64,000 nt of DNA, from NCBI RefSeq assembly GCF_000350165.1, contig NZ_CAUI01000023.1, positions 124,001 through 188,000 of the forward strand, written 5' to 3'. Origin of the DNA: Halanaerobium saccharolyticum subsp. saccharolyticum DSM 6643 (lineage in GTDB: Bacteria; Bacillota; Halanaerobiia; Halanaerobiales; Halanaerobiaceae). Below the pieces are notes generated by a model that was not told the origin of the DNA, made no database searches, and saw only the letters and a list, made by a program, of their open reading frames with translations. The translations under genes and the position numbers were made by a program. Positions 17,975-19,258 of the stretch are shown piece by piece (the stretch's first letter is position 1; each line of letters begins with the position of its first letter).

Positions 17975-18007
17975 CAAAAAAATAACCTCTCATTTAAATG
18001 AGAGGTT
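17975..18007 (-). terminator. Terminator of the trpP pair
   Basis: A perfect 24-base palindrome (17984-18007, arms AACCTCTCATTT) is followed on the minus strand by TATTTTTTT. It lies 23 bp beyond the downstream trpP stop. Confidence 0.85.
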
Positions 18008-18029: not shown

Positions 18030-18557
18030 CTATAGCGCTTTATTTTCAGCACCTTCTACTTCTACATCCATTGCAAAATCAACTACACTAAAAACTATAA
18101 CTGCAGTAAATGTGTTAACAACTGCTGCTGGTATTACAACTGTAGAAAATAAAACAGTAAATGGACCAGGTAAGCCAACTAATAAAGCAGCTGTACCTAG
18201 GAAAATACCTCCACTTAACATTGTACCAAAAGCTGTTATAATACCTGTAGATAATTTGCGTGATGGCAGTTTAATTATAATTGGGATTAAAGGATAAACT
18301 ATTATAAAAGTCACTAATTTATCCACCATGTTTGCCACCTGTCCTCCAGGGAAACCGGTAGTTAATGCAGTAAAAATCCCAGTAGATACTGCAACTAAAA
18401 AACCTAATTTAAAATCCTGTTTGATGATCAATAAAATGAACATCATCGCTAAAGCAAAATCAGGTTTCATACCCATAACAATTGGAGGAAAAAATGCATG
18501 TAAAATAAATCCTATCGCTACCAACAAAGCCGCCTGTGCTAAATCTTTTGTTCTCAT
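18030..18557 (-). CDS. trpP: TrpP-family tryptophan transporter, copy 1
   Basis: 175-aa membrane protein with about five helices resembling Bacillus TrpP (YhaG), a tryptophan-uptake protein: MGMKPDFALAMMFILL near residues 28-43, ALTTGFPGGQVANMVDK near 64-80, and GLPGPFTVLFSTVVIPAAV near 127-145. It is the second of two tandem copies; the other lies 62 bp upstream with the same length and the same first ten residues. The leader between them is packed with GAG/TAG triplets overlapping the ribosome site and start, which suggests TRAP-type translational control. Some relatives are annotated only as ECF-like substrate-binding components. Confidence 0.82.
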   Translation of the reverse strand: MRTKDLAQAALLVAIGFILHAFFPPIVMGMKPDFALAMMFILLIIKQDFKLGFLVAVSTGIFTALTTGFPGGQVANMVDKLVTFIIVYPLIPIIIKLPSRKLSTGIITAFGTMLSGGIFLGTAALLVGLPGPFTVLFSTVVIPAAVVNTFTAVIVFSVVDFAMDVEVEGAENKAL

Positions 18558-18611
18558 CTCAACTCATCTCTCCTTTTTTGTTTTTACTAGTCTCCTCTAC
18601 TTCTACAACTC
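18553..18611 (-). promoter_or_regulatory. TRAP-like (G/U)AG triplet array at trpP copy 1
   Basis: On the minus strand, five triplets GAG-TAG-TAG-GAG-TAG separated by two or three bases (about 18589-18611) are followed after 16 A-rich bases by four GAG triplets separated by exactly two bases (AT, TT, AT), covering the ribosome site and start codon (18553-18570). Bacillus trpP is repressed at translation by TRAP binding just such triplets over its ribosome site. Spacing and position are seen directly; binding is inferred. Confidence 0.6.
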
Positions 18612-18619
18612 TGCTTTTA

Positions 18620-19147
18620 TTATAATACTTCACTTTCCACCTGATTATATTCCACATCGATGGCAAAATCAACAACAGTAAATAATACAGCTGCAGCTAT
18701 TGTATTTACAACTGCTGCCGGTAAAACAACACCTATAAATAAAGCAGTAAAAGGTGCGGGTAAACCTACCAGCATTGAGGCTATAGTTAAGAATATACTT
18801 CCACTAATAATTGTTCCAACTATTGTAGTTACACCTGCTAAAACTCGCTTCTGCAAAAACTTACTAAAAAGCGGAATTAAATTATAAACAATTAAAAATG
18901 TGAGCAGTTTATCAACTATGTTTGCTATCTGACCACCAGGAAAGGTAGTAGTTAAAGCAGTAAATATTGCTGTAGCTAAAGCTACCAGAAACCCTAATTT
19001 AAAATCCCTCTTAACAATTAATATGATAAACATCATTGTCAATGTTAAATCAGGTTTCATACCCAAAAATATTGGTGGTGTTAAAGACCTCAAAATCATC
19101 GCAATCGCTACCAACAAAGCCGCCTGTGCTAAATCTTTTGTTCTCAT
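18620..19147 (-). CDS. trpP: TrpP-family tryptophan transporter, copy 2
   Basis: Paralogue of the adjacent gene, also 175 aa when started at ATG 19147, which aligns exactly with the start of copy 1 (both begin MRTKDLAQAALLVAI). The in-frame extension upstream is rejected because it would read through the ribosome site. Conserved blocks are FLGMKPDLTLTMMFI, ALTTTFPGGQIANIVDK and GLPAPFTALFIGVVLPAAV. It is first in the pair and carries the promoter. Divergence from copy 1 is moderate, so the duplication is not very recent. Either copy may have shifted to a different aromatic substrate. Confidence 0.82.
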   Translation of the reverse strand: MRTKDLAQAALLVAIAMILRSLTPPIFLGMKPDLTLTMMFIILIVKRDFKLGFLVALATAIFTALTTTFPGGQIANIVDKLLTFLIVYNLIPLFSKFLQKRVLAGVTTIVGTIISGSIFLTIASMLVGLPAPFTALFIGVVLPAAVVNTIAAAVLFTVVDFAIDVEYNQVESEVL

Positions 19148-19219
19148 CTCAGCTAATCTCTCCTTTTTTATTTTTACTAATCTCAACTAATTTTAAGCTA
19201 ATCTTTATTAGCTTTTCTA
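19143..19219 (-). promoter_or_regulatory. TRAP-like triplet array at trpP copy 2
   Basis: The core (19143-19189, minus strand) reads TAG-TT-GAG-AT-TAG, 16 A-rich bases, then GAG-AT-TAG-CT-GAG-AT-GAG over the ribosome site and ATG. Two further TAG triplets lie upstream (to 19219). The layout matches that before copy 1, although individual triplets differ between GAG and TAG, which is what a triplet-binding protein would tolerate. Confidence 0.6.
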
Positions 19220-19229
19220 ATTGCTTAAT

Positions 19230-19258
19230 ATTATACATCAGATATAATAAATTGTCAA
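19230..19258 (-). promoter_or_regulatory. Consensus promoter of the trpP pair
   Basis: Perfect sigma-70-type promoter on the minus strand: TTGACA (19253-19258), 17-bp spacer, TATAAT (19230-19235). Transcription should begin near 19223, so nearly the whole 76-base leader is the triplet-rich sequence. Confidence 0.8.

Follow-up and report, generated by a model that had tools for sequence, protein, structure and literature searches.

The two tandem trpP genes of Halanaerobium saccharolyticum subsp. saccharolyticum DSM 6643 very probably make up one unit of two cistrons, in which each of the paralogous genes for TrpP tryptophan transporters has a translational operator of its own for TRAP (MtrB); Trp-loaded TRAP would block the ribosome at both starts, and scarcity of tryptophan would free them. 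TRAP, a textbook regulator, is known for the most part from Bacillus, and so is the switch itself; added here are the range, a strong link between array and mtrB throughout the phylum, and the doubling of the operator. On sequence grounds, the reading of these arrays by TRAP is strongly supported, and from this we infer RNA binding, tryptophan dependence and repression at the trpP leaders. The genes lie in the window, by which we mean the whole stretch of 64,000 nucleotides that was analysed, and the features of the unit are the following:

19230 to 19258, minus strand: promoter of the two-gene unit, TTGACA, 17 nt, TATAAT, a 12/12 match to the consensus, 5' of copy 1
19195 to 19214, minus strand: 5' hairpin at the start of the leader, AAGCUAAU-aaag-AUUAGCUU, from the fold of the leader
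18620 to 19147, minus strand: trpP copy 1, ATG at 19147, 175 aa, paralogue clade A in the tree (PF17099, E=6.4e-46)
18030 to 18557, minus strand: trpP copy 2, ATG at 18557, 175 aa, paralogue clade B in the tree (PF17099, E=3.4e-44)
17984 to 18007, minus strand: intrinsic terminator 3' of copy 2, 10-bp stem and U tail

Both copies match the TrpP family nearly over their full length, with scores of 151 and 157 bits against a curated cut-off of 27.2, and they presumably carry tryptophan in Halanaerobium. As there is a promoter 5' of copy 1 and a terminator 3' of copy 2, the pair would most likely be carried on one transcript, predicted to start near 19223, which would give a leader of about 76 nt. 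A second and weaker promoter-like match (10/12) is found inside the 3' end of copy 1 (18672-18644). The hairpin at the start of the leader, to which a motif in the trpP leaders of five other Halanaerobium genomes bears resemblance (G014, G017, G019, G012, G016), may serve TRAP binding or the protection of the RNA end.

The start of each gene is covered by an array of (G/U)AG triplets, in two clusters separated by a gap:

19177 to 19189, minus strand: copy 1, predicted TRAP site, 5' cluster, UAG-UU-GAG-AU-UAG
19161 to 19176, minus strand: copy 1, A-rich 16-nt gap, UAAAAAUAAAAAAGGA, ending in the first Shine-Dalgarno bases
19143 to 19160, minus strand: copy 1, predicted TRAP site, 3' cluster, GAG-AU-UAG-CU-GAG-AU-GAG (shuffle p=0.001)
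18587 to 18611, minus strand: copy 2, predicted TRAP site, 5' cluster of five triplets, GAG-UUG-UAG-AAG-UAG-AG-GAG-AC-UAG
18571 to 18586, minus strand: copy 2, A-rich 16-nt gap
18553 to 18570, minus strand: copy 2, predicted TRAP site, 3' cluster, GAG-AU-GAG-UU-GAG-AU-GAG (shuffle p=0.003)

Both 3' clusters span the Shine-Dalgarno sequence and the AUG, and in copy 1 the G of the AUG (19147-19145) also belongs to the final GAG. An extra UAG stands upstream of the 5' cluster of copy 1 (19200-19198, minus strand), and the 5' cluster of copy 2 begins 9 nt past the copy 1 stop. The first-pass annotation had described these arrays at 18553-19219, and its coordinates fit: the triplets, the 16-base gap and the four triplets at 2-nt spacing over the Shine-Dalgarno sequence and AUG are all there. 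It had also proposed that triplets switch between GAG and UAG while their spacing is kept; between the two copies this is true of one aligned triplet only (UAG to GAG) and the spacers vary more, but first-position G/U switches are indeed frequent across 18 related genes, in a comparison whose search design makes A and G invariant. The size of the gap is kept as well: of the 16 Halanaerobiaceae trpP genes that have both clusters, 14 have one of 15-17 nt. The tight clusters of copy 1 hold only seven triplets, against 11 in the trp leader of B. subtilis, so TRAP could bind copy 1 with lower affinity.

Could such triplets simply arise from purine-rich ribosome sites and the conserved first codons of TrpP (MRTKDLAQ), with no regulator involved? 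The 3' cluster does overlap both the GGAG ribosome site and the conserved coding start, but neither constraint reaches the 5' cluster, and chance rarely produces the spacing, so that the shuffled-leader test named in the first-pass annotation did not refute its reading: in dinucleotide shuffles of the leaders, a chain of four triplets at 2-nt spacing has the p values given above, while the number of triplets in chains of at least three (7 in copy 1 and 9 in copy 2) was equalled in 0/2000 and 3/2000 shuffles, respectively. Furthermore, among 100 control ORFs of the same genome (at least 100 aa, with a Shine-Dalgarno-like site, from the window and four other stretches), the four-triplet chain at 2-nt spacing occurs in two, which are the trpP pair themselves; this means that ordinary GGAG ribosome sites are not its source. 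Outside the order, the trpP genes of genomes lacking MtrB also have ordinary GGAG sites, and only 1/37 carries a chain. A by-product without regulator is thus extremely improbable, and control by TRAP is by far the better account.

The arrays are conserved in relatives, and they follow the regulator. Within the order, 24 of the 25 trpP genes of 21 genomes with MtrB have four or more triplets in a chain with spacers of exactly 2 nt, the exception being G007, which has MtrB and a trpP without chain; in genus g17, which has no MtrB, none of the three trpP genes has such a chain, and the longest chain is of two. The divergent PF17099 protein of G006, with a longest chain of three, was excluded from this count. 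Outside the order, where the chain was defined as at least four triplets at 2-3 nt spacing, it is found in 33/38 trpP genes of genomes with MtrB vs 1/37 of those without (Fisher p=8e-15, a value that ignores kinship and overstates independence because species are related, though the groups span many families). The sole exception among the latter is G114, a fragmented assembly, in which a loose MtrB search gave only a chance match of 28 residues; the same search gave nothing convincing in genus g17.

The mtrB homologue whose absence, together with a lack of array conservation, would have counted against the first-pass annotation is encoded in the genome of the trpP pair, once (PF02081, E=1.5e-37, 129 bits vs a cut-off of 21.3). 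Its product aligns with solved TRAP structures over nearly its whole length and retains Lys37, Lys56 and Arg58 (B. subtilis numbering), which we take to be the RNA-contacting residues, the segments TEKLDKGE and AMKIRG being in register with 1wap. MtrB is found in 32/38 genomes of the order, the others being the five genomes of genus g17 and one incomplete genome, and in 28/29 of those of good quality. It was further suggested that TRAP in Halanaerobiales would extend the known range; the gene is present, but the claim is weaker than it seemed, as MtrB occurs in 198/398 sampled genomes of the phylum, and its presence in Halanaerobium is therefore unsurprising. No TRAP report for Halanaerobiales came up in a search of open-access literature. 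As for anti-TRAP (RtpA), a search with PF15777 gave no 53-aa protein in the genome of the trpP pair; its sole match there covers a small part of a 379-aa frame and is read by us as a DnaJ zinc finger. Across the order, almost all matches lie in frames of 340-404 aa that we likewise read as DnaJ zinc fingers rather than anti-TRAP, and G032 has one weak match, under the cut-off, in a 78-aa frame. Anti-TRAP is, in any case, not required for membership among TRAP systems.

Arrays are also found before the trp biosynthesis genes, as had been anticipated, both in the genome of the trpP pair and in its relatives. In the genome of the pair, the trpEGDC leader has nine triplets (GAG-CC-UAG-AU-UAG-UA-GAG-CA-GAG-UUA-GAG-AU-GAG-AU-UAG-CA-GAG) followed by two terminators; trpE leaders with arrays occur across the order, and in some of its genomes trpB and trpD, too, have arrays upstream of or over their starts. 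At the level of sequence, these arrays speak independently for a reading of the triplet code in these bacteria. Most Halanaerobium genomes have two tandem terminators between the array and trpE (L008 1560-1740, G000 C18), and the trpE leader of G024-G026 (family f4) has the second kind only, GGUCAGGC...GCCCUGGCC. In the minimum free energy fold of the L008 leader, a part of the array, GUUAGAGAU, is paired with AUCUCUAAU just 5' of the second terminator; when the G000 trpE leader was folded at equilibrium, both terminators formed equally whether the array was free or kept single-stranded, and the calculation did not reproduce an antiterminator switch. The gene mtrB is the immediate 5' neighbour of trpE in G028 and G029, and of trpB in G024 and G025 (loci L077, L078, L109, L110, L112, L113). 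Arrays are placed on the starts of trpD (L112, L113) and of trpB (L109, L110), which suggests translational control of these genes; similarly, the array of G006 trpE (L075) overlaps both ribosome site and gene start, so in this species trpE may be controlled at translation and not by attenuation.

We can now consider how the trpP unit would work. With ample tryptophan, the TRAP ring, loaded with Trp, would wrap the (G/U)AG triplets from the leader across the Shine-Dalgarno sequence and the AUG; with the starts so covered, the ribosome would be excluded, both TrpP would remain untranslated and uptake would stop. When tryptophan is scarce, TRAP would be released and both genes would be translated. 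Since a gap of 15-17 nt is about three 5-nt triplet repeats, the array could keep its register around the 11-subunit ring (about 4 + 3 blank + 4 subunits). Another possibility is that the main effect of TRAP is on decay of the RNA or on transcription of the unit (termination or pausing), ribosome access not being the direct target. The trpE leaders of the same genomes are attenuator-like, and TRAP may act on transcription there; in the trpP unit, however, the terminator search found none between the promoter and copy 1 and none between the two copies, and the array directly overlies the ribosome site, all of which makes this alternative very unlikely beside a direct block of translation.

By every tested feature of their sequence, the trpP sites appear as members of the TRAP translational operators. 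In B. subtilis, TRAP binds trpP RNA where translation initiates and hinders the ribosome from binding (PMC11255114, which has Yakhnin 2004 among its references). The Halanaerobium sites share with this operator (trpP, also yhaG) the regulator family, the transporter family, the triplets over ribosome site and start codon and, as we presume by analogy, the direct block of ribosome binding. They differ from it in that there are two tandem paralogues with a site on each, that about 16 nt of conserved A-rich sequence divide the array, and that the host is a halophilic anaerobe outside Bacillus in whose genome no anti-TRAP was found. The B. subtilis trpEDCFBA leader, a TRAP transcription attenuator, resembles the trpE leader of Halanaerobium, with its nine-triplet array and then terminators, although the latter has two in tandem; the trpP sites, unlike both, have no terminator. 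The TRAP sites of B. subtilis trpG and ycbK are also located in translation initiation regions, but they belong to other genes and are single copy.

The doubling itself deserves attention. In the TrpP protein tree, Halanaerobium has two paralogue groups (support of 100/99 for group A), and the split is old within the genus. The tandem pair of A and B is present in 4/12 Halanaerobium genomes, in the order A then B in G000 and G015 and B then A in G018 and G020, while the others have one gene; among the named relatives found, the nearest is Halanaerobium saccharolyticum MSL 17.2, and it carries this tandem pair and its arrays too. By eye, a separate promoter-like sequence (TTGACA, 17 nt, TATAAT) can be read for the second gene of G018, so the pair need not always share a transcript. 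Gene conversion, considered for the near-identical first bases of the two genes, is an unneeded explanation, as this stretch is near-identical among related trpP genes within Halanaerobium. One may also ask whether a single site is functional, the array of the other copy being a relic of duplication. The smaller 5' cluster of copy 1 and the retention of only one gene in several species would fit this; yet, the clades are well separated and the arrays are kept in both copies in four species, the four-triplet chain being found in 8/8 genes of the four tandem pairs, and in the 5' clusters the spacers have changed while the triplets were kept. We therefore consider a relic unlikely, if less so than the two alternatives above, and favor two working operators.

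Several other leaders carry triplets. That of an NSS-type transporter gene (L016 9640-9830; G000 C5:294639-294829) has three (G/U)AG clusters, a stem ACCUGAU/AUCAGGU that closes the structure, and inside it a hairpin with some compensatory changes in seven Halanaerobium genomes; it may be a split TRAP site or a regulatory RNA of another kind. That Halanaerobium TRAP also controls this transporter (G000 C5:294829, L016 9830-11305), with stem and hairpin gathering the three clusters so that the ring would read a split array across helices instead of a linear one, is a doubtful proposal. The leader of G022 is without triplets, and the NSS gene of G036, which lacks MtrB, also has upstream triplets (L116), which calls for caution. 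Rfam gave no family above threshold for the trpP, trpE and NSS leaders. In G011 (L100), five triplets at 2-nt spacing lie about 30 nt 5' of a gene that by eye is quinolinate-synthase-like (NadA-like), and they may be due to chance; in G005 (L096), an identical six-triplet sequence is found at C1:1624707, the start of a 233-aa ORF, and at C1:2450793, and this is possibly a repeated element rather than a TRAP site.

As the array tracks the presence or absence of MtrB almost everywhere, TRAP control of trpP translation is indicated as general in the phylum, and the (G/U)AG array is usable to map TRAP regulons from sequence alone. The tandem pair, for its part, offers two natural operator variants, probably on one mRNA, for the effects of triplet number and gap on affinity.
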